From a virus, in the IMG/VR virus record IMGVR_UViG_3300009132_000046, positions 1 to 22,010 of that record: a stretch of 22,010 bases of DNA. One strand, given 5' to 3'. Every line of letters begins with the position of its first letter. Within the stretch, counting starts at the first letter, position 1. Of this stretch, positions 1-18,773 are shown in pieces. A program made the translations under genes and the position numbers. A model generated the notes under the pieces. The model was not told the DNA's origin, ran no database searches, and was given only the letters and a program-made list of their open reading frames with translations.

Positions 1-1358
1 GTATCTAAGAATTGAAATGACTGTTGTGAGTTACTATGTCCAGCACCATTAAAAGATACTCGTTTATATACTACTAATTCCTCTGAATTTCTTACTAACC
101 TGACACTGTTATTTGCACTTGAGGAAGTATTCCCAAGTCCAGCACTAAAGCTTAACCATACTTGATTGTCTGCTGAAGCTGGAGTTATCTTGACTTCTAA
201 TCCTGTGTCTTCCCAAACACCTGTATTGGTTTGAGTAGTCCTTGTGCTATTCTTTGATGACTTAACTTGTAGCTTAGTGCCACTTCCTGAATTACCACCA
301 CCTGTTACCTCTGTCCATGCTTCATCTTGTCTTGCATATTGTTTACCATCTGCTGGTGCTTCTTCTACAGATGTAATACTATCTGCAATAGCTTGAGCAT
401 TCAGCTCATGTAACTCTGCTTTATCTGCTGAGTCACTAGCATCTGAGGCACTCTGTGCTGCATCATTGGCTGAACCTTGAGCAGCTAAGGCATGACCTTC
501 TGCTTCATCAACGAGGTCACCCACTTCTGCTACTACATCATTAACTGATTCTGCTGCAAGTTGAGCATCGGCTGCATGACCTTGAGCTTTATTTTCTGAT
601 TCTTTAGCATTAGTTTCAGAAGTCTTAGCATTATCTTCGGATACCTTAGCTGCATCTTCAGAAGCCTTAGCTTTTGTTTCTGATTCTTTAGCTGCACTCT
701 CAGATAACTTAGCGTTATCCTCGGATACCTTAGCTGCATCTTCAGAAGCCTTAGCTGCATTAGCTGCGTTCTCTGCTGCTACTGCATCATCATGAATAGA
801 ATCAGCCGCCGCTTCAGCTCTGTCTGCATCCGCTTCAGCTGCTTCAGCTGCATCCTCGGCTCTCTTAGCATAAGGCTCTAAGCTAGGTGCTAGAGCATCT
901 AACTGTCCTTTGTTGACTGCATCAGATGTAGCAGTCCCATTAGCTAGGTTAATTATCTTCTTACCTTCAGCATTCCAATTAACTCCATCACCCGGTTTAC
1001 CAGGACCGTCGGGACCATCAGGATCACCGGGGTTACTGTTTAGGGCATACTTAGCTGCATCTTGGGTTTCTTCGGCTACATAAAGTGACTGTACTGTAGC
1101 TATATCTAATTGATTTTCAGTCAATACTGAACCGTCAGTAAAGTCTACTAACGGCTCGGTAGGTGTTACTCGTATAATAGTTATATTACCTGTATAACCA
1201 GAATCTAATTGTATTGAGCTTTCAGTTATCCAAGTATATTCAGATGTCTCTTCGCCGTCCAATAACACATTAACGTGAGTTTTAGATAAGTAAGGGAACG
1301 TAACGGCGTATGTAGTCGTTAATCCGTCACCTTCGTATGTTACATAACTTTTTGCCAT
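1..1358 (-). CDS. Tail fibre protein, T7 gp17-like N-terminal part (runs off the left edge)
   Basis: Receptor-binding fibre of the podovirus tail; 452 codons are visible and the C-terminus lies beyond base 1. Residues 1-150 match the T7 gp17 tail-anchoring domain in pattern: a VDFTDGS box, then AEE-rich helix, then an EGKKIINLAN box followed by a DAV-x-x-GQL motif. Residues 108-123 form a Gly/Pro/Asp-rich linker with some collagen-like triplets. Residues about 160-330 are an Ala/Glu/Ser/Lys-rich coiled-coil shaft built of seven-residue units. From about residue 358 a beta-type domain begins, with a TGVWEDTGLEVKITP stretch like those in marine phage fibre tips. The ATG overlaps the stop of the gp16-like gene by one base (TAATG), implying translational coupling; this overlap decides the start. 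Fold assignment rests on remembered T7 sequence; the host receptor cannot be inferred. Confidence 0.93.
   Translation of the reverse strand, partial: MAKSYVTYEGDGLTTTYAVTFPYLSKTHVNVLLDGEETSEYTWITESSIQLDSGYTGNITIIRVTPTEPLVDFTDGSVLTENQLDIATVQSLYVAEETQDAAKYALNSNPGDPDGPDGPGKPGDGVNWNAEGKKIINLANGTATSDAVNKGQLDALAPSLEPYAKRAEDAAEAAEADADRAEAAADSIHDDAVAAENAANAAKASEDAAKVSEDNAKLSESAAKESETKAKASEDAAKVSEDNAKTSETNAKESENKAQGHAADAQLAAESVNDVVAEVGDLVDEAEGHALAAQGSANDAAQSASDASDSADKAELHELNAQAIADSITSVEEAPADGKQYARQDEAWTEVTGGGNSGSGTKLQVKSSKNSTRTTQTNTGVWEDTGLEVKITPASADNQVWLSFSAGLGNTSSSANNSVRLVRNSEELVVYKRVSFNGAGHSNSQQSFQFLD
624..755 (-). repeat. Internal repeat in the fibre shaft (two 48-base copies, 84 bases apart)
   Basis: Copies at 624-671 and 708-755 differ at only a few, mainly third-position, bases. 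They encode the heptad-type pattern AKASEDAAKVSEDNAK at residues 202-217 and 230-245. The 84-base offset equals 28 residues, or four heptads, so gain or loss of a unit would keep the coiled-coil register. The likely origin is recent internal duplication lengthening the fibre shaft. Confidence 0.8.
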
Positions 1359-4300
1359 TATTTATTGTTCCTTCTTGTTGATTTAATTAACATGCGTCTA
1401 AAGATTGCTTGGGCTTGTCTAAAGGCCCTGCTTCTATGTACATCACCTTTATCTTGAAGCCTATCTAAATCCATATAATTCTTATGGTCTTTACCAACTA
1501 TTCCATTAATATGATTACCGGCTTCTCGTTCAGCTTGTACCGCTAACGATCTTCCGCGACCATAGTCAACAAGTTCTAAACCTTTTGCATACGGTCTTTT
1601 TAACTTGTTTTCATAGGCATAACCATCAAGCAACATAAGTTGCATGCCTACTTTTTTACGCTTGTCGTATAGTTTTCCAATAAAGAATGCTTTACCTTTA
1701 GGGTCAGCCATTTTATATTGTCGTGATTTAAATAGTTTTCTGAATTCAGCATTCATATCTAAGCCACCTGCACTCTTATAGTTCTTCATAATCTTAAGCA
1801 AGTTGTATCTTTCTCTATTATCGATCTTGATACCTTTATACTGCTTCGGTACAGTTCCGAGTACTGGGTAGTTAGGTAGTGCTTGCTTAACTCTAAGTAT
1901 TTCTTTGTGCTCTTCTAGCTCAAAACCTTTAGCGGTCTTAATTGGGGTTGGTATTGCATTAATAGGATTAAACTTATTATCACTAATACCTGTTGCTTCA
2001 CCCAACATCTCAGGCTGTGGCTGTTGTACTTCATCTCCAAAAGAGTTTAAGTACGGCACAGGTTTATCTACAATACCTATATCTGATAGCAAACCACCAT
2101 AGCGTTGATCTATATGTTCACCAAGTGTTTCTGGTGCTCTTCTTATTTGATCTTCACCTAAACGTTGTCTTAACCATTTAACATGAGTTGAGAATACGGA
2201 TACCCAACCAGCTATATAACCTTTTAGCACTTTTTCAGTTCTGAGTCTTGAGCCTTCTTGTATAGTTGATAATGCTCTTTCAATACCTTGGAAGGCTGAT
2301 TTATCTTTAACATCTGATAATACAGACATCGTACTATCCCAAACTAAATGCTGAGATAGCTCTAATATCTGTTGGTCAGTTAGTTGATCGCCAGCATTAT
2401 GTATTAAACCCATCCATTGATGCATTAATGAAGCAGCTAATGAGAACATTTGTGAATGAGGTTCTAAACCTCTATACGAGGTTTTCTCGCCGGTTTCAGA
2501 ATCAATAGATGTAGTTCTTTCAATACCCATATCTCGGTATTCCATGCTGTCTTTACCTGATGCCGCGCCTAGTAGTTGATCACCTTGTTCAAAGGCATAC
2601 AGCATTGCGGCAGACCAGAGTGCACCGCCGATTGTCAAGTGGCCTAGTGCTCTTTCGGCTTCATATCCACCAGCTTTAAGTTGCTGGCTTATCTTAGAAC
2701 CTACTGGAGTTAAGTTAAGCCCAGGTGTCATACGACCCACGTAAAGGGCTGCATTAACTGGGGCACGAACAAATGGAAGTATTAGTACTGAACCTGGCGT
2801 TTGTCTAATAATTCTATACCAGTCTTCACCTTTTTTACCCCATGAGTTTGTGAATGTTGCCACGTGACCTTCTTCTAAACCTTCTTTATATAGAGCGTAG
2901 TTATCGCGGTCAGCTTGAGAACCATTCTTGGCTTTAAACTTATCTGTTGTACTTACTTCTTTAAACCTTTTTTCAAACTGTTTTTTGAATGCTTTAGGGT
3001 GCTTAACAGGATTAATTTCATTTGATACTTCTTGCATTAACTTACTGTATACGTGCGCCCTGTGATTCATAAGCTTAAACATTTCATCAGAGGCCATCAT
3101 GGATCTTACGCCACCTGGTAACCCTCTAAATAAGAAACCAACTGCGTTGATTGCTTTATTCATATACTCAAGTGGACTACCTGGATCTAGGTCTCTAAAA
3201 CCAAGATTATCAGCAGTAATGGCGGGTTTAGGAGTATATTCGTTTACAAACTTTTTATCTCTTGAAAAGTAAGCAGTCTCATCTGCATAAGATCTTGAGA
3301 ACATCTTTAGACCATCAAAGATTGAAGCTAGATAACCATATGTGTGAGCAAAGGCCATCTTGTGCGTTATCGCTTTTTCTCCAGCTTTACCTGTGGTATT
3401 TCTAAATGCTGCAGCGTGTATATCGGCTGTTCTTGCTAACATCACACCTATGTTGGATACAATCTGTAAACCAAATGTTGGAACACCTAGAATAGAACCT
3501 ACAAAGCCTTCACTACCAGCCGCTCTAAGTTTTTTACCCCATTCTCTACCTTTTGCAATTTCTGCAATATTGTCAGGTAAAGGCCCATTTGGATCAATTT
3601 TAGAAAGCTGTTCAATTGCGTCATCAAGTTTATCAAAGTCTTTTGTGACGTTCTGTATATTACTAAATGATGTCGTAAGACCCTTCTTGGCATCTTTACC
3701 ATTTACATACTTAGATTCTTTAATCATATTAAAAGCACGACCCATATCACTACGGGCATACCTAACATTTTCAGATATAAATGTACCTAAGTTAATTAAT
3801 TCTTGTAGTTCTTCTTTAGTCATCTTGCCAGCTTTAACAGCTCTGGCAGCATCAATATAGCGATAACCCATCGCCATATCAACTACACCAGCTTTAAACT
3901 CAACCGTGTCTAAATCTCTTGTTAGACTCTGGTAAGTTTCAACAACTCCTTGGTTTTCGTCGATTACTTGTTGAGGGTTAGCTATTGCATCTGCTTTTGT
4001 AGTACCGGCTTTAGCTGCAACAGCATTTTTAGTGCCTGCACTTCTAGCTTGAGCTTTAGCATTTAATATTAATTGATCTACAATATCATCAAAGTTTTGA
4101 ACAGTATTTAGACCTTTAATTGTCTGCATATGTGGTTTTAAAGCTCTAGCAAGTAGTTCCATTGCTTGGGCTTTATTACCTTCGTAGAATATAGTATTAA
4201 AGTTTTTTTGTAACTTAGGTGTTAACTCTACTTGTGGAATATCCCCAATTAACGAATCACCATCTTTAATTCCTGTTAATGCTTCTGTATTGTCTGCATC

Positions 4301-5086
4301 AGTAAGATTTTTTTCTGGCTTTTTAGGGTTTTTATCTTTAGCTCTTTGGATAACCTTGGCTCTACCAAGTAAGCCAAATACACTAAATAGTGCATTGAAC
4401 ACAGTACCAGCAAGTAGTCCTTCTAACGCTTGCTTGGTTCTGCCCATAAGTACGGTATCATCATCATCTAATTTAAGTGATTTAATCAATGAACTCGTCA
4501 TCGCCTCACCTACGGCCAGTTTAAAACTATCGAATGCCCCAGCATCCTCAGGATTCTCTAAGAACTTCTGGCGCGCTTCTGTAACTAACTCAGACCCAAA
4601 TTCGTCTGTAAAGTCAGCCAAGCGTTTCTCTGTATGATCCCATACCATAAAGTCTGTTACAGCTCCAGCAGTACCAGCACCAACCAGCTTCTTCATCCAC
4701 GGCATTATTTTGCCGGAACTTTGCATAACCTTCATACCTTTGATAAGAGGTATAAATCCTATAAGAAACTGTGAGGTTGATTTAAGTAATTTAGTACCTG
4801 TAGAATGATCTGTGTGCTTTTCTAACGCCTTAGCGAGTTCGGGTGATTGTACCTCAACACTTTTTGCTAAATTAAGAAAATAATTTGGATCTTCCATATC
4901 ATACGCAAGACCTACGGCGCTATCGGCTAATACCCCTACAGATTCCATTACATTCTCGGCTGCATCCCAGACTCCGTCAGTCACTGCTCCGGCATACGCC
5001 ACAGCGGATTTATAGCCGTCAGTTGAAGTAACATCACCTGTAAGCAAATCTTTATCATTAACATCAATGTTTTGCATAAAGCTCAT
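1358..5086 (-). CDS. Internal virion protein, T7 gp16-like (ejected core / DNA-translocation protein)
   Basis: A 1242-residue protein in the position and size class of T7 gp16 (1318 residues), the largest ejected core protein, which spans the host envelope during DNA entry. Hydrophobic stretches occur at about residues 107-117 (FLIGFIPLIKG), 223-241 and 812-835, suited to membrane insertion. The rest is helical and basic toward the C-terminus. No lysozyme/transglycosylase signature is recognised at the N-terminus, where T7 gp16 has one. The ATG at 5086 has only a weak AGG upstream. The same frame stays open and looks coding back to a TAA at 5192-5194, and the 80-codon frame beyond it is also in register, so this may be the 3' part of a longer gene. 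The stop overlaps the tail fibre start. Role is assigned mainly from gene order and size. Confidence 0.85.
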   Translation of the reverse strand: MSFMQNIDVNDKDLLTGDVTSTDGYKSAVAYAGAVTDGVWDAAENVMESVGVLADSAVGLAYDMEDPNYFLNLAKSVEVQSPELAKALEKHTDHSTGTKLLKSTSQFLIGFIPLIKGMKVMQSSGKIMPWMKKLVGAGTAGAVTDFMVWDHTEKRLADFTDEFGSELVTEARQKFLENPEDAGAFDSFKLAVGEAMTSSLIKSLKLDDDDTVLMGRTKQALEGLLAGTVFNALFSVFGLLGRAKVIQRAKDKNPKKPEKNLTDADNTEALTGIKDGDSLIGDIPQVELTPKLQKNFNTIFYEGNKAQAMELLARALKPHMQTIKGLNTVQNFDDIVDQLILNAKAQARSAGTKNAVAAKAGTTKADAIANPQQVIDENQGVVETYQSLTRDLDTVEFKAGVVDMAMGYRYIDAARAVKAGKMTKEELQELINLGTFISENVRYARSDMGRAFNMIKESKYVNGKDAKKGLTTSFSNIQNVTKDFDKLDDAIEQLSKIDPNGPLPDNIAEIAKGREWGKKLRAAGSEGFVGSILGVPTFGLQIVSNIGVMLARTADIHAAAFRNTTGKAGEKAITHKMAFAHTYGYLASIFDGLKMFSRSYADETAYFSRDKKFVNEYTPKPAITADNLGFRDLDPGSPLEYMNKAINAVGFLFRGLPGGVRSMMASDEMFKLMNHRAHVYSKLMQEVSNEINPVKHPKAFKKQFEKRFKEVSTTDKFKAKNGSQADRDNYALYKEGLEEGHVATFTNSWGKKGEDWYRIIRQTPGSVLILPFVRAPVNAALYVGRMTPGLNLTPVGSKISQQLKAGGYEAERALGHLTIGGALWSAAMLYAFEQGDQLLGAASGKDSMEYRDMGIERTTSIDSETGEKTSYRGLEPHSQMFSLAASLMHQWMGLIHNAGDQLTDQQILELSQHLVWDSTMSVLSDVKDKSAFQGIERALSTIQEGSRLRTEKVLKGYIAGWVSVFSTHVKWLRQRLGEDQIRRAPETLGEHIDQRYGGLLSDIGIVDKPVPYLNSFGDEVQQPQPEMLGEATGISDNKFNPINAIPTPIKTAKGFELEEHKEILRVKQALPNYPVLGTVPKQYKGIKIDNRERYNLLKIMKNYKSAGGLDMNAEFRKLFKSRQYKMADPKGKAFFIGKLYDKRKKVGMQLMLLDGYAYENKLKRPYAKGLELVDYGRGRSLAVQAEREAGNHINGIVGKDHKNYMDLDRLQDKGDVHRSRAFRQAQAIFRRMLIKSTRRNNK

Positions 5087-5194
5087 GTTGCCAATACCTG
5101 ACTCCTGGGCTAGAAAGTACTGTTCGTACTTACCGTCTTTAACATCTTGTACGTCTTGATCTGTTAATTCATTTTCATCAAACCCAGCTACTTA
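5087..5194 (-). other. In-frame TAA and 35-codon open stretch joining two coding frames
   Basis: Bases 5192-5194 read TAA on the minus strand. The following 35 codons are open and in register with both the upstream 80-codon frame and the downstream gp16-like frame. They translate to protein-like text: VAGFDENELTDQD, then KYEQYFLAQESGIGN, running into the annotated Met. The GF-plus-acidic pattern seen twice upstream (GFGGSSPEE, GFGDSDQND) appears a third time here as GFDENELTD. This suggests one gene interrupted by a stop. Mutation, sequence error and readthrough cannot be told apart here. Confidence 0.55.
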
Positions 5195-5434
5195 ATCAGC
5201 TGCGCCAGTTCCTAATTTATTGACTTGAGCATCATTTTGATCTGAATCGCCAAACCCAAGATCAACATCTTCTTCACTAGCTTGTTCTGTTAAGTCATAA
5301 GTCTGGTGGTCAGCTTCATGTGTTTGCGATAATTCTTCAGGAGATGAGCCGCCAAACCCGTGATCTTGAGGATCTGTGCCTTCCCACGCTGAGCCCTTAC
5401 TTCCAGCCATCATTTCTTTTATATCTTCAGCCAT
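5192..5434 (-). CDS. Small acidic protein, or N-terminal fragment of the gp16-like protein
   Basis: Eighty residues, strongly acidic and rich in Gly, Ser and Gln, with a twice-repeated GFG-x-S-acidic pattern. No known domain is recognised. It starts 12 bases after the gp15-like stop, with an AAGGAAT ribosome binding site close before the ATG. Its TAA is in the same frame as the gp16-like gene downstream and the separating 35 codons look coding, so it is probably the original N-terminus of that gene. The alternative is an independent small virion protein with the start of the next gene lying in its shadow. Confidence 0.6.
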   Translation of the reverse strand: MAEDIKEMMAGSKGSAWEGTDPQDHGFGGSSPEELSQTHEADHQTYDLTEQASEEDVDLGFGDSDQNDAQVNKLGTGAAD

Positions 5435-5446
5435 GTTATTCCTTGT

Positions 5447-7057
5447 TTATTTAGGGGTATCTTCTGTTTTAGTAGGTACAGAATCTGGGTCGGTTGTTGC
5501 CTCATTTAATATCTGATTAGCCACCTGGTTAGAAATGCTTGCTGCTTCTTTTGCTTTGCGCAATCTTGATTCTTCTTCAATAGCGAGCCTACGTCCTACT
5601 TTGTATAAGAACTTTTTATGTTGTGGCCCAAGTTCATTCCAGAACGAAATTCCTGTAGGTGACCCATCTACTTGAATACCATCATCACCCATAGTTAATT
5701 TTGATTTTTTATACCATTCGAGAATTATTGTCATACCTTGGGGGTTATTTTCTCCATCTTCTGTGCGAAGTAGAGACATCATTTTTGTATCTGCATTTAA
5801 GTTAAACTCAGCTCGTTTGCGTCTAGCTGCAACTAATTGCGGATCTAAGTCATTTAAGCGTCCCGCTTCATCAAGAGTTGCTTTCTTTGCAAACTCTGCA
5901 GCAGCTTTATAATCACCACCATTGCGCTTAAACTCGTTAGAATATTGCTCGTCATAATATGTTGCGTAGTCTTGATTCTTATAAGAGTCATCTGTCTCAC
6001 CAAATACAGAAGCAAATGGATTATCAGGTGAACCTAATTCTTTATTAATAAAACGTTTATTTTCATTATTTAAAGTCTTAGCTTTAGTTACCTGTGCTTC
6101 AGCATCAGCTTTATTCTGACGCTGTGCTGCTTCATTTTGCTTTACCATGGTTTTGTAAAGATCAGTTATTTTATCTGTATACTTATCATTATCTATAAGA
6201 GCAGGTAGCTTACCGTCTGGTCCACCTTTTTCCATAAGAATGTAAAGTAACTCTGGATCATTTGTTCTCTTAGCTAGGTCATACACAGTCTTAAATTTAA
6301 ACTCGTCCATTGTTGGGTTATCCCAAGCACTGGTCATCTGTACGTCTGCTTTAATCTGTTGCCACCAATTGTTATCAACAATAATGTCCGGATTGTTATA
6401 TGCTTCAGTTAAAGAGCGTCTAATGTTCTCTTGAGTAGCATTTTTAAGCTCTGTTTGTTCTATATCGTACAAACGCTGTGCGTCTTTTGCTTCTGCAACT
6501 TGTAACGATTGTTGAAATGATTTATTAAATTCTTCTAAGAACTCTGGGCGAACCATAGTCAACCCACGCTTATCCTTGTCTGCATACCACTCTTTGTACC
6601 ACTCAACATAAGGTTTATCTAAAGGTCTATTTATACTTTCAAGCTCTAACATACGGCCTAAGTCTTCGCCTTGCATATAAGCAGTTGTCTTATCGTAGCC
6701 ATACTTATGCCATTCATCTTCAAAGAATTTCTTATTACCTTCGCTTCTGGCTTCTTCTGCTAATGCTAGGCGTTTACCTTCTTCAATCTTAGCTTTGTTT
6801 ATATCAACTTGTTTGGTTGCTAAAGTCTCATTAATAGTAGGCACTACTTCAGATAAGCTTTCTGCTAACTTTTGTGACGCTACTTTTTCAGGAGTTACTG
6901 TCATGTTTAACTGGTCAGCAAATACACGCATAGTCCTGTTAGGTGGTAGGCGAAATCTATTAGCATCTAAATAAACTTGTTTTGTTTCTTTAGTTCTTTG
7001 CGTTACACCTGTATCTCTTTTTTGACTAAAGGCGTCAAATGCTGGTTCAGTAGCCAT
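5447..7057 (-). CDS. Internal virion protein, T7 gp15-like
   Basis: A 536-residue, highly charged, mostly helical protein with no membrane segment, lying between gp14- and gp16-like genes. This is the place of T7 gp15 (747 residues), which forms part of the internal core and the trans-periplasmic channel for DNA entry. Long Lys/Glu/Ala/Gln-rich stretches (about residues 85-115, 190-215, 290-330 and 495-525) look like coiled coils. It is shorter than the T7 protein and shows no motif I can name, so the call depends on order and size. It starts three bases after the gp14-like stop. Confidence 0.78.
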   Translation of the reverse strand: MATEPAFDAFSQKRDTGVTQRTKETKQVYLDANRFRLPPNRTMRVFADQLNMTVTPEKVASQKLAESLSEVVPTINETLATKQVDINKAKIEEGKRLALAEEARSEGNKKFFEDEWHKYGYDKTTAYMQGEDLGRMLELESINRPLDKPYVEWYKEWYADKDKRGLTMVRPEFLEEFNKSFQQSLQVAEAKDAQRLYDIEQTELKNATQENIRRSLTEAYNNPDIIVDNNWWQQIKADVQMTSAWDNPTMDEFKFKTVYDLAKRTNDPELLYILMEKGGPDGKLPALIDNDKYTDKITDLYKTMVKQNEAAQRQNKADAEAQVTKAKTLNNENKRFINKELGSPDNPFASVFGETDDSYKNQDYATYYDEQYSNEFKRNGGDYKAAAEFAKKATLDEAGRLNDLDPQLVAARRKRAEFNLNADTKMMSLLRTEDGENNPQGMTIILEWYKKSKLTMGDDGIQVDGSPTGISFWNELGPQHKKFLYKVGRRLAIEEESRLRKAKEAASISNQVANQILNEATTDPDSVPTKTEDTPK

Positions 7058-10731: not shown

Positions 10732-11658
10732 TTACGCTGAAGCTAATTCAACAGCTGCCTCTGGTCTAAGCACACCATGGCCTACCGCGTACTTCGCTAC
10801 CATTAGTGTCCCTTGACGTCGAATGTCATATTCACTTTCGGCCGCAAGATCCATTAACTTAACTGTGCCACATGAACCTTTATGAGCTACTAAGCCGACT
10901 GTAGTTGAGAAGTCACCTTTGTATGCATCAGGTCCTGTAGTTACGTTAGTTTGTGGAATTGAATTAGTTTTGATGATAGGTAGTCCTGCAATTTTCAGGA
11001 TTGTACCTTCTGAGATTGAACCTTTACCATCATACCACTGATTAATTACAGTTGTATTTTGAGCTAGTAAGTAATACTGAGCTGGTAGGAAGAATGCATT
11101 TCTGTCATTCTCTGGAACATTCTTTTCATCTAGTGTTTGTTGAGCATCAAATAAACCTGCTGCTAGAACTGCTGAGTCAGTTGGATAGTCTGCATTAGTT
11201 AATGTAGTACCACCAGCTTGGCCAGTAATAGTAGAAGATTCGCGTGCTGTAAGAGCCATTACTTGTGCAATGTTCTCATCCATTTTCTTAGCTAGTTGGA
11301 AACCAATTTCGCTTGAATATGTAGAACGTACATCATAGTGGTTCATAGCTTCATCAATGTTAGCAATGAATGTAGATGATGTAAGTAGGTCGTCGATAGT
11401 TATTACTCTCTCAGCGTGATTGATTTCATCACCTAAGATTTCAGTACCTGGCGTATGGTATCCAGTTGTTGCAATACCTGTTGCAGGGAATTGTGCCGAC
11501 TTCCCGCTAGCAATTGTTCTTACGGTTGTTTTGTCTAAAAAGACATTGTGTTGTTGGAATGTAGCTAGAACTTCACCGGCAAAGACTTTAAGAAAGAGGG
11601 CTTTCTTGTCGCTTGCACCGTTGATAGACCCTAGTCTACTTGGATTTGCATCACTCAT
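10732..11658 (-). CDS. Major capsid protein (T7 gp10A-like, HK97 fold)
   Basis: A 308-residue shell protein, somewhat shorter than T7 gp10A (345). Family-typical elements are an N-terminal SDKKALFLKVFAGEVLATFQ helix, a TGYHTPGTEI segment, an RVITIDDLLTSSTFI box, a QLAKKMDENIAQ spine helix and a C-terminal YDIRRQGTLMVAKYAVGHG segment. The ATG is preceded by AAAGGAA at good spacing. The 435-base leader upstream contains a PqqA-like gene and hairpins. No slippery site or C-terminal extension like the T7 10B frameshift product was recognised; the gene is followed directly by a hairpin. Confidence 0.95.
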   Translation of the reverse strand: MSDANPSRLGSINGASDKKALFLKVFAGEVLATFQQHNVFLDKTTVRTIASGKSAQFPATGIATTGYHTPGTEILGDEINHAERVITIDDLLTSSTFIANIDEAMNHYDVRSTYSSEIGFQLAKKMDENIAQVMALTARESSTITGQAGGTTLTNADYPTDSAVLAAGLFDAQQTLDEKNVPENDRNAFFLPAQYYLLAQNTTVINQWYDGKGSISEGTILKIAGLPIIKTNSIPQTNVTTGPDAYKGDFSTTVGLVAHKGSCGTVKLMDLAAESEYDIRRQGTLMVAKYAVGHGVLRPEAAVELASA

Positions 11659-15149: not shown

Positions 15150-17096
15150 TTACTTTACGGGGCATGCACCGCCCTCGCACTCTTGGTTTTCTATCTCACC
15201 TTTTGAGTCTTCTTCATCTAAAATAATAGGCTGAAGTTTGCTTACATACTCTTCATATACCTCTTTACTTACAACTTCTTGAGGTAGATATAGGTATCCT
15301 AGGTCTTCAGCAGACTTAGTTGGATCTGCTCTAAATAGGAATGAAACTCCTACATAAATATCCCAGTTATCTAGTAACCAGTCTATAATCTCAGGTACTT
15401 CTTCAGGTGAATAACTAACGGTACAACTTACATTTTGCTGACAGTAATTAGTTTGTATAAGTTTGTATCTGTCTAACTGAGTTACAGCTGATTCAACATT
15501 AACTTCTAACCCATTTACAGTATCAAACTTTACTGTATCCCATTTAACAGGGAAGCGTACTAATGTGCCTTCAGGATCGTTTGGATTCTCAAACACATGG
15601 TAACCAGCCGCTCTGCACTTAGCTAATAATGGATCATGAGCACCAAAGTTAACATTATTAAATACATATTTACCTAGAGGTTTATGTACTCCTTCGGTTG
15701 TATCCATTATCTTAGATAACGTTCCACTCGGTTTAACTGTAGTTACATTTTTAGGACGTGGTAACCCAAGTTCATCAGCCATTGCGTAAGCGCCGTGAGT
15801 TGCTGCGCGCTGCAAACTTTGGTACTCGTAAGAGTCCATGTCCGGTCTGGTCGCGATACCCGTAATTCCGACTCCACAGAGTCTGAGAAAACTGTTATTA
15901 AGATGCCACGCTTCTTGCAGTACGCCGTCAAGTAATGAGACACAGGTTTGTCTGTAGTTGGCTCTTGCAGCAATGTATATAGCTCTTTCCAATCCTGTGG
16001 TATTTCCTTTAAATTTTCCAATGTCTATCTCCACTAAATTACAGAAGGATTTATTACCTAGTAATATCTCAGCGCAAGGGTTACATCCTTTAAACCATGG
16101 GGCTCTAGCTGTTGCAGATGCTTGATTAATAAAACCAGGTTCACTACCACCTGAGTCAACCATGAGCTTAAAGATATTCTCTAGCTCTGCTTTAGTTGGC
16201 TTTGCTTTAAATAGTAATGAGTTATTTGATTGGGCTCGTTGCATATTCCCTTCCCAGAAGTTACGCTTTGCTACCGCAAACTCTTCCCATTCTGGTTCGT
16301 CATATGAGAACAAGGCAATCTCTGCTGATCTGCGTGAAGATAGAATAGTACCTAGCCAGTTAACTATATCTAATATATCCATACGAGATAGTAGTGATCC
16401 AGCTCTTCTATTCATTATCTTGCAAATAGCTACATATGCTTTAGCAATGGCAGTATCACCAGAGCTAATCCAACCGTAGCCTTTTAATCGCTCACCAGCT
16501 GGTCGTATTTGAGAGAAGTCTAAGATGATCTTCTTAGCTGGATGTTTCATAGCTAGTAACTTACCTATAGACTTAGCCCAAGCTTCAGCTGAGTCTCCAA
16601 CCTGCATGTACCATGTTTTAGTTTTGTTATTCCAATCTTCTTTGTTATTCTCTTCACCACCCGTCTTAGTTCTTTCAGAATTAATAACCTCTATTGTAGG
16701 AACCTTTTGAGTAAACCCGTTAAGCGTACCTACTATTGGTCGGAAACCGACACCGCAGCCTTGCATAAGTAACCAAAGAACATCAACAACATCTTGCACA
16801 CTCTCAACATGTGTGAATGCGCAATTAAATTGTGAAGCTTCTCTCTTTTTAGCTGTGTCAGTACCTCCTAGCCATAAAGTTCTACCTGAAGTAGATACCT
16901 TTCTGGTCAGCATTAGATCTCTAAGCTCTTCTAATTCTGCTTCATCAGGCGTACCTTCTCTTTTCCATAGCCACCTTTGGTGGTCAATGACTCTACCTAC
17001 TGTTTCTTCCCAGCTTTCGAAGCCTTCTTTTTTGGGACGTTGGTATGTTCTTCTTGCTATTAGTTGAGCTCTTAGACTCGGTGGTGTGTTGTTCAT
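15150..17096 (-). CDS. nrdJ: Class II (B12-dependent) ribonucleotide reductase, monomeric type
   Basis: Converts ribonucleoside triphosphates to deoxy forms using adenosylcobalamin, supplying dNTPs for phage replication. Numbered from the chosen ATG (648 residues): QFNCAF carries C92 of the active-site redox pair, MQGCGVGFRP follows, NPCAE carries radical C341 and E343, and SFC carries the partner C352. A TTVKPSGTLS box and a C-terminal CEGGACPVK swinging arm with two cysteines complete the set. It resembles the Lactobacillus-type monomeric enzyme. The ATG at 17096 has AAGGAAG directly upstream; a longer frame from 17138 lacks a ribosome site and adds 14 unlikely residues. The first about 100 bases overlap the preceding small gene in another frame. 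Common in marine phages; needs host cobalamin. Confidence 0.93.
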   Translation of the reverse strand: MNNTPPSLRAQLIARRTYQRPKKEGFESWEETVGRVIDHQRWLWKREGTPDEAELEELRDLMLTRKVSTSGRTLWLGGTDTAKKREASQFNCAFTHVESVQDVVDVLWLLMQGCGVGFRPIVGTLNGFTQKVPTIEVINSERTKTGGEENNKEDWNNKTKTWYMQVGDSAEAWAKSIGKLLAMKHPAKKIILDFSQIRPAGERLKGYGWISSGDTAIAKAYVAICKIMNRRAGSLLSRMDILDIVNWLGTILSSRRSAEIALFSYDEPEWEEFAVAKRNFWEGNMQRAQSNNSLLFKAKPTKAELENIFKLMVDSGGSEPGFINQASATARAPWFKGCNPCAEILLGNKSFCNLVEIDIGKFKGNTTGLERAIYIAARANYRQTCVSLLDGVLQEAWHLNNSFLRLCGVGITGIATRPDMDSYEYQSLQRAATHGAYAMADELGLPRPKNVTTVKPSGTLSKIMDTTEGVHKPLGKYVFNNVNFGAHDPLLAKCRAAGYHVFENPNDPEGTLVRFPVKWDTVKFDTVNGLEVNVESAVTQLDRYKLIQTNYCQQNVSCTVSYSPEEVPEIIDWLLDNWDIYVGVSFLFRADPTKSAEDLGYLYLPQEVVSKEVYEEYVSKLQPIILDEEDSKGEIENQECEGGACPVK

Positions 17097-17199
17097 TGTC
17101 TTCCTTATTATTATTAAATATGCGGTCCCAGTTATCATGAAGCCGCTGGTCTGTGACTAAGCTTGGTCGGCGCTTACTGCCTTTTCCTCCATCGCTCAT
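16993..17199 (-). CDS. Conserved small phage protein (GGKGSKRRP ... WDRIF type)
   Basis: Sixty-eight residues, basic and mostly disordered after residue 30. The N-terminus MSDGGKGSKRRP and the NWDRIF element at about residues 23-28 match a small protein family often seen in phages near nucleotide-metabolism genes; its function is unknown. The start forms an ATGA overlap with the 69-residue gene upstream. It overlaps the ribonucleotide reductase start by about 104 bases in a different frame, so both frames are constrained there. Its real end could be this long basic tail, or the tail may have grown by overprinting. Confidence 0.78.
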   Translation of the reverse strand: MSDGGKGSKRRPSLVTDQRLHDNWDRIFNNNKEDNEQHTTESKSSTNSKKNIPTSQKRRLRKLGRNSR

Positions 17200-17405
17200 T
17201 TAATGGTCCTAACTAATTCAAAGTTTTCTGGTAGATATAAGTAGTCTTCATGCAAACATCTATATCCTGTCCAGTTATCTTTCATTGAATATTCATTCTC
17301 AGCCCATTCAACTGCAGCTGTGCATGAACTAAAGTTACCCGCATATACTTCGTGCTCTATATGTAGGTCTCCTATAAAACTTACTAGTAATACATACTCA
17401 AACAT
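17196..17405 (-). CDS. Small phage protein of unknown function
   Basis: Sixty-nine residues beginning with a hydrophobic MFEYVLLVSFIG strand, then AGNFSSCTAAVEWAENEY and a C-terminal GYRCLHEDYLYLPENF. Two cysteines (C28 and C50) and many aromatic residues suggest a compact alpha/beta fold. I do not recognise a named family. Both ends overlap neighbours: TAATG with the hydroxymethylase stop and ATGA with the next gene, so it belongs to the same translationally coupled set. Confidence 0.72.
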   Translation of the reverse strand: MFEYVLLVSFIGDLHIEHEVYAGNFSSCTAAVEWAENEYSMKDNWTGYRCLHEDYLYLPENFELVRTIK

Positions 17406-18070
17406 TATTTATTTAACTCCTTAAAGTGTTGTTCATAGACGTGCAAGCTACCTACGTTCCAGTGAATATCTCCAGGAATAATTTGGAATCTGTAGAATAA
17501 ACTTAAGCTTGAAACTAATTTATCGAGTACAAACTTTTGCCAGGCATAGTCATTGTTATAACCAAACACAGCATCGTTAGATCTCATGTTTACAATGGCG
17601 TGTAGTTGGTTATCTCTATATAGATACTGCACACTGTTAGTACACATAAAGTCATTCTTACCTTCACTGTTGTAGTCATAGTGCATGCTTGGTCGGGTAT
17701 AAATCATTACAGCCCGACGACTATGTATATCTGAAATTAAGGTATCTAATACATTGTCATACTGATCGTGATTCTCTTTAGAATAGATACACCAACCGTA
17801 GTTAGAATTAATGTAACCATTGTCTGACGCAACATCTTTCCATATCTTTGGTACGGTACCTTCAATAGAATTAACATTAAGACTTTGTGATCGATACCAC
17901 TTGAGCTCTCGTCTAACATAGTCTTCGTTAGGTGCTCTGAGTAAGTAAGGCCTATCTGCTATAAAGTTAGCATTAATTATTTCTACTACCTTACCTCCAA
18001 GCTTATCGTTAACAAACTTCTCTTCTTGGTACAGCTTAGTTAACTTGTTGACTATCCCTTGTGTGTTCAT
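17405..18070 (-). CDS. dCMP hydroxymethylase, T4 gp42-like
   Basis: A 221-residue member of the thymidylate synthase superfamily that closely follows T4 gp42, which turns dCMP into 5-hydroxymethyl-dCMP with methylene-tetrahydrofolate. Shared blocks, from memory of T4: RRELKWYRSQSL, PKIWKDVAS, NSNYGW, SRRAVMIYTRPSM, FMCTNSVQYL, NMRSNDAVFG, NDYAWQKFVLDKLV and WNVGSLHVY. Key residues keep a constant five-residue offset to T4: E55 (T4 E60), catalytic C143 (T4 C148) and D174 (T4 D179). The Asp at the last place, instead of the Asn of thymidylate synthase, selects dCMP over dUMP. The C-terminus is about 20 residues shorter than T4's. It overlaps its upstream neighbour by four bases and its downstream neighbour by one. 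Confidence 0.92.
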   Translation of the reverse strand: MNTQGIVNKLTKLYQEEKFVNDKLGGKVVEIINANFIADRPYLLRAPNEDYVRRELKWYRSQSLNVNSIEGTVPKIWKDVASDNGYINSNYGWCIYSKENHDQYDNVLDTLISDIHSRRAVMIYTRPSMHYDYNSEGKNDFMCTNSVQYLYRDNQLHAIVNMRSNDAVFGYNNDYAWQKFVLDKLVSSLSLFYRFQIIPGDIHWNVGSLHVYEQHFKELNK

Positions 18071-18396
18071 TTTTTACCTCTATTTAAAATGTCCTTATCT
18101 TTTGTTTGCCCATCAAGCTTGCCTCGTGTATAGGCAATGCCGAATGATGCGTAGTTAATTAGATCTTTAAGTGAATCCTCTAGTGATTCAAACTTCGGAG
18201 TGTACTTAGGGTCATCTCTCATTTGTTCTAATATAGATCTAACTCTAAGCATCTTAGTGTTCAGCATGTCGTGAATAGAAATCATGCCGTTCGGATAGTA
18301 TTCAGCTTGTTTAACAGAGCCACCGTTGTACACGCTAGCTTTATCTAACTGTAGCTGTTTAACTTCATCTAATACTTTAATTGATTCCTTTGTCAT
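18067..18396 (-). CDS. Probable nucleotide-modification-associated domain 1 (DUF1599-like) protein
   Basis: A 109-residue helical protein. The middle and C-terminal parts read SIHDMLNTKMLRVRSILEQ and then FESLEDSLKDLINYASFGIAY. This fits the DUF1599/Nmad1 layout: a helix with K-x-x-R, then E-S-x-x-D-x-x-x-D-L-x-N-Y-A. That domain is reported near modified-base genes in phages; its biochemical role is unclear. It sits directly between a MazG-like gene (TAATG junction) and the dCMP hydroxymethylase (four-base overlap), which strengthens the reading. Family assignment is by eye and could be wrong. Confidence 0.6.
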   Translation of the reverse strand: MTKESIKVLDEVKQLQLDKASVYNGGSVKQAEYYPNGMISIHDMLNTKMLRVRSILEQMRDDPKYTPKFESLEDSLKDLINYASFGIAYTRGKLDGQTKDKDILNRGKK

Positions 18397-18773
18397 TACT
18401 CTGCTCCTATCACTTCACTAAAATCAGGTGCTACCCAACCTCTAGGTTTTTTAACTCCTAGTTTGTGCGTTTCATCTGGCACTGTTTCTTTACTCATGTT
18501 GGCTTTATGAACTTCATTCCAGCAAGCATGCCAATCTTCTTCAGTAATACCCATCATGTTTGCCGTGCCCATAACTATGTAAGTTAAATCTATTAGTGCA
18601 TCAACCTGACCATGTAAGTCTTTATCATTGTGTGCTTGCATAAGCTCATCTACTTCTTCTTGCATATGTGCTACACGATGCTTCATTAACTTAGTAGCTA
18701 ATCTGCTAGGCCTATCAGCTCTGTGTATCTTTAACTTCTTAAGGAAGTCATTTGTATCTGTATAATTACTCAT
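18396..18773 (-). CDS. MazG-like / phosphoribosyl-ATP-pyrophosphohydrolase-like NTP pyrophosphatase
   Basis: A 125-residue all-alpha NTP pyrophosphatase. The helix MQEEVDELMQA gives the metal-binding E39-E40-x-x-E43 cluster, and VDALIDLTYIVMG gives D58-x-x-x-D62. A KKPRGWVAPDFSEV tail is common in phage members. Such enzymes hydrolyse (d)NTPs to monophosphates. Next to a dCMP hydroxymethylase it could remove dCTP and feed dCMP, a job done in T4 by gp56, another all-alpha enzyme; the substrate here is inferred, not shown. The start overlaps the exonuclease end by eight bases. Confidence 0.82.
   Translation of the reverse strand: MSNYTDTNDFLKKLKIHRADRPSRLATKLMKHRVAHMQEEVDELMQAHNDKDLHGQVDALIDLTYIVMGTANMMGITEEDWHACWNEVHKANMSKETVPDETHKLGVKKPRGWVAPDFSEVIGAE

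Follow-up and report, generated by a model that had tools for sequence, protein, structure and literature searches.

Among the known systems closest to the gene treated here is the ejectosome protein gp16 of phage T7, which, according to PMC8954989, has a length of 1318 aa and forms part of the ejected channel. The abstract of that paper describes the ejection proteins as required for infectivity. Closer to marine phages, the Pelagibacter phages HTVC119P, HTVC200P and HTVC041P, the Roseobacter phages CRP-114 and CRP-227 and others (Autographiviridae) share with the present locus a common gene position, flanked by a gp15-like gene and the next tail gene, and similarity in the protein core.

Here, we analysed a virus record of 22,010 bases, taken whole and referred to as the window. 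This podovirus-like (Autographiviridae-like) phage fragment carries all its main genes on the minus strand. Their products comprise DNA polymerase A, an exonuclease, a thymidylate synthase-like protein, a class II ribonucleotide reductase, portal, scaffold and capsid proteins, a tail protein, a gp13-like protein, an internal virion protein (at the gp14 position), a protein at the gp15 position, the product of an interrupted gene and a tail fibre. The interrupted gene is very probably a single gp16-like gene, 1358 codons long, into which a point nonsense codon has been introduced, by a real mutation or by an error in the consensus. The features concerned are as follows.

5447..7057, minus strand: gp15-like gene (536 aa) adjoining the interrupted gene upstream; its TAA lies 12 nt ahead of ATG 5434, and the order is the same in relatives
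1358..5434, minus strand: probable whole interrupted gene, encoding a gp16-like internal virion protein D; its length is 1358 codons including the stop position, plus the terminal stop; single register, synteny, homology to uninterrupted genes
5192..5434, minus strand: 5' segment of 80 codons with the likely gene start, ATG 5434-5432; AAGGA 5 nt upstream; 25% acidic, 4% basic
5192..5194, minus strand: in-frame TAA, absent in 15 of 15 relatives
5087..5191, minus strand: 35 open codons from the TAA to the next ATG, coding-like; 26% acidic; codon log-odds 0.546
1358..5086, minus strand: open frame of 1242 codons with the conserved core; the only ribosome-binding site ahead of its own ATG is a mis-spaced AGGAG at a distance of 15 nt

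The gene is a divergent new member of the internal virion protein D / gp16-like ejection family of marine phages, and its acidic N-terminal region is variable. It follows the gp14-like and gp15-like genes and precedes the tail fibre gene, an order that matches 10 phage records; in the two Roseobacter phages it is followed by a gene annotated as collagen-like or hypothetical. Using tblastn, we found matches to HTVC200P (E 2e-12) and to HTVC119P, where the gene is annotated as internal virion protein D (E 8e-10). Moreover, phrog_6651, 'internal virion protein', matches four of the seven members of the family alignment, and the window protein on its own gave no PHROG match. Pfam searches (E up to 1) with the 1242-aa and 80-aa frames returned no family above the cut-off and no transglycosylase domain, and nothing was found when the profile of the family was compared with solved structures.

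The 80-codon frame, the TAA at 5194-5192, the 35 open codons and the 1242-codon frame, which ends with a TAA at 1358, lie in one reading frame. The claim of the earlier note that these parts are in register was confirmed, as were its coordinates and lengths. The 35 codons from 5191 to 5087 contain no ATG, GTG or TTG and no stop. Such a stretch would be open by chance in ~5% of cases at the off-frame stop frequency, and its openness alone is weak evidence for coding. Coding pattern was scored using a codon log-odds model trained on the other listed genes of the window (21 of the 43 listed ORFs were chosen for start, stop and codon statistics). The mean log-odds reached 0.563 in the 80-codon part and the value listed above in the 35 codons, while the remaining five frames of those stretches ranged from -0.59 to 0.02. 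For comparison, 35-codon segments of the other listed genes averaged 0.327 in frame (n=182) and -0.194 off frame (n=910), and none of the 910 off-frame segments scored as high as the stretches flanking the TAA. On this measure, both sides of the TAA appear as coding-like as any gene in the fragment.

To start the gene, ATG 5434 is the likely codon: with its AAGGA it pairs at -5.4 kcal/mol and resembles the other starts in the window. These other listed starts have spacings of 4-11 nt, as read by eye and with the doubtful start at 17138 set aside. The latter belongs to the class II ribonucleotide reductase gene (15150-17138), whose first ATG is nearly devoid of a ribosome-binding site (-1.7 kcal/mol) and whose true start is probably an ATG further in. 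Beside this gene, a PRA-PH (phosphoribosyl-ATP pyrophosphohydrolase-like) and a thymidylate synthase-like protein (17405-18773) make up a nucleotide metabolism cluster.

The gene is whole in the relatives found. It forms one uninterrupted frame in all five IMG/VR relatives whose 5' end is complete (L069, L070, L071, L072 and L073), each time beginning behind AAGGA. Several handles denote the same contigs, which were counted once each (L002/L071/L076, L010/L073/L078, L069/L077, L070/L074 and L072/L075), and L068, a contig that begins inside the gene, was excluded from the N-terminus counts. The 10 phage records, matched with L070 as query, likewise show one frame with 0 internal stops. In all of them the gene starts -1 to 15 nt past the gp15-like gene, as compared with 12 nt in the window; the two genes lie 10 nt apart in L002 and 12 nt apart in L010. 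None of the 15 relatives that are complete at the 5' end has a stop at the corresponding place. The finding named beforehand as speaking against a single gene, namely relatives that share the stop and have separate starts, was likewise encountered in none of the 15. Furthermore, L071 has no other ATG, GTG or TTG before codon 131, and HTVC041P and S30C28 have none in 150 codons; since these three lack a start codon matching ATG 5086, they must start upstream.

The best IMG/VR relatives are about 29-35% identical over the gene (38% for one cut at its 5' end). Searches with the 1242-aa protein, the gp15-like protein, family alignments and DNA patterns around or beside the stop, as well as among phage records and plasmids, yielded no near relative, within collections from which near-identical records may be excluded. 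Because no relative is close (best about 34-38%), the N-terminus was compared across a large distance. Four matches from one DNA-pattern search lay in frames full of stops and were rejected as chance.

The N-terminal region resembles that of the relatives in composition and only weakly so in sequence. The shares of acidic residues before and after the stop listed above, with 4-6% basic residues, compare with 24-28% acidic residues in the first 100 residues of the IMG/VR relatives, and with 11-14% in the cores. When a profile of the relatives' N-termini was compared with the whole N-terminus of the window, 1 and 2 of 1000 shuffles were as good. With the 35 residues alone, 11 of 1000 (four relatives) and 38 of 1000 (five relatives) were as good; with the 80 residues, 264 of 1000 (four) and 20 of 1000 (five). 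As this homology is weak, the case for one gene leans more on the single register and the codon pattern, together with synteny and the place where the gene starts. Searches of PHROGs, Pfam and phage records with the 80-codon segment gave no match. A fold prediction for the first 413 read-through residues gave a mean pLDDT of 34.9 and was for that reason set aside and not searched against structure libraries.

A GF-plus-acidic motif had been reported twice before the stop and once after it, and we located it at read-through residues 26, 60 and 84 (stop position counted). Three GF[GD] in 115 residues occurred in 7 of 100,000 shuffles, a frequency to be read knowing that the motif was picked after being seen. 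GF motifs of the type found in the window's N-terminal region (5087-5434) are missing from the N-termini of four of the five complete IMG/VR relatives. For this reason, the three copies of GF[GD], which lie near acidic residues, may represent a repeat particular to this lineage or a motif used in docking.

We considered whether the locus could instead represent a real split, in which an 80-residue acidic protein would be made from ATG 5434 and a gp16-like protein that has shed its N-terminal region would start at ATG 5086, leaving the 35 codons as a newly untranslated leader. The AGGAG ahead of ATG 5086 keeps this from being dismissed, as its pairing amounts to -6.9 kcal/mol when 22 nt are allowed, which is stronger than at ATG 5434; in addition, four relatives differ more from one another in the N-terminal region (identity 0.59-0.61) than in the core (0.71). 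However, its 15 nt spacing falls outside the range of the other listed starts, and within 17 nt the pairing drops to -3.8 kcal/mol, a strength equalled at 22 of 133 internal ATGs (drawn from 19 of the listed ORFs, with the 80-codon frame and the tail fibre gene excluded). The supposed leader, moreover, retains the full coding pattern, and a separate small ORF between the gp15-like and gp16-like genes is present in 0 of 10 phage records, with none of at least 60 aa in L002 or L010. Translational coupling needs a short distance, and the 105 nt separating the stop from ATG 5086 are far for it. A split is thus unlikely. It is less probable still that the TAA is fixed in a real lineage, with the acidic region now a separate 80-residue virion or assembly protein and the core independent; a gp16-like gene would then have come apart into two only recently.

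Programmed readthrough of the TAA, yielding a minor full-length virion protein alongside the 80-residue product, would account for the single register and for coding on both sides, but a nonsense mutation does so just as well. Against it, TAA is the commonest stop in the window, where it closes 15 of the other 19 closed ORFs on the list, and UAA is recognised by both bacterial release factors, as stated in PMC5009743. No tRNA gene is present in the 22-kb fragment, the RNA fold after the stop is unremarkable (z -0.92; 35 of 200 shuffles as stable) and no Rfam match was obtained. A conserved stop with an extended downstream frame was seen in 0 of 15 relatives, and the large, presumably needed product would be the minor one. 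We therefore hold readthrough to be very improbable. Reassignment of the TAA to a residue, in the phage or its host, draws on the open frame only; as most listed genes, including the gp15-like and the interrupted gene, end at a TAA close before the next start, it is refuted by TAA at gene ends in the same window and is hardly conceivable. Of the explanations offered by the earlier note, the one that sees a single gene of about 1358 codons affected by a nonsense mutation or a sequence error is thus favoured by codon pattern, ribosome-binding site position, synteny and the 15 whole relatives out of 15, while stop readthrough is left unsupported.

In the favoured reading, that of one broken gene, the gene, which encodes a gp16-like internal virion (DNA-ejection) protein, would run from ATG 5434 to 1358, and the TAA at 5194-5192 would be a point nonsense codon within its acidic N-terminal region. 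The stop would be a recent lesion that arose either in this lineage or in the sequence as assembled. The lesion looks isolated, since the top matches of ten other window genes to relatives aligned without any stop in the matches shown. With a real stop, translation would yield an acidic peptide of 80 residues, and the core protein would arise only via weak initiation at ATG 5086. If infectivity depends on the ejection proteins here as in T7, fixation of the stop would carry a cost, and an error in the sequence or a rare allele would be likelier than fixation. The stop is most likely an ordinary lesion or artefact and not a new kind of gene expression. A literature search on premature stops in internal virion proteins in metagenomes found no report, and one on readthrough brought up mainly work on recoding. 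For annotation, both frames are best treated as one 1358-codon gene with the internal stop flagged, rather than as a truncated virion protein preceded by a small orphan gene. Should the stop prove real and fixed, it would demonstrate that the acidic N-terminal region is separable from the core.

The capsid protein (10732-11658) is 97% identical to that of L002 and 90% to that of L010, whereas the gp15-like and gp16-like proteins (region 1358-7057) share only about 28% and 34% identity, respectively, with those of L002. The ejection module is thus sharply mosaic. The gp15-like protein of L002 (6882-9572, 896 aa) has a Phage_lysozyme2 domain at its end. The window's gp15-like protein gave no Pfam match, and no peptidoglycan hydrolase was found in the gp15-like or gp16-like proteins of the window.

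Compared with known systems, the window resembles T7 in its gp14-gp15-gp16 order and in the size of the gp16-like gene; T7 gp16 begins with a transglycosylase domain, whereas none was detected here. Internal virion protein D of the Pelagibacter, Roseobacter and other phages named above measures 1181-1334 aa, a length similar to that of the window gene. Identity with the Pelagibacter and Roseobacter proteins is about 21-28% over the aligned parts, and their genes are uninterrupted, whereas that of the window is cut by the TAA. The IMG/VR contigs (L002/L071, L069, L070, L072 and L073/L010) have no internal stop and differ in N-terminal sequence, yet they have an acidic N-terminal region and an AAGGA start like the window, and they place the gp16-like gene after the gp15-like gene where the end of the latter is listed (L002 and L010).
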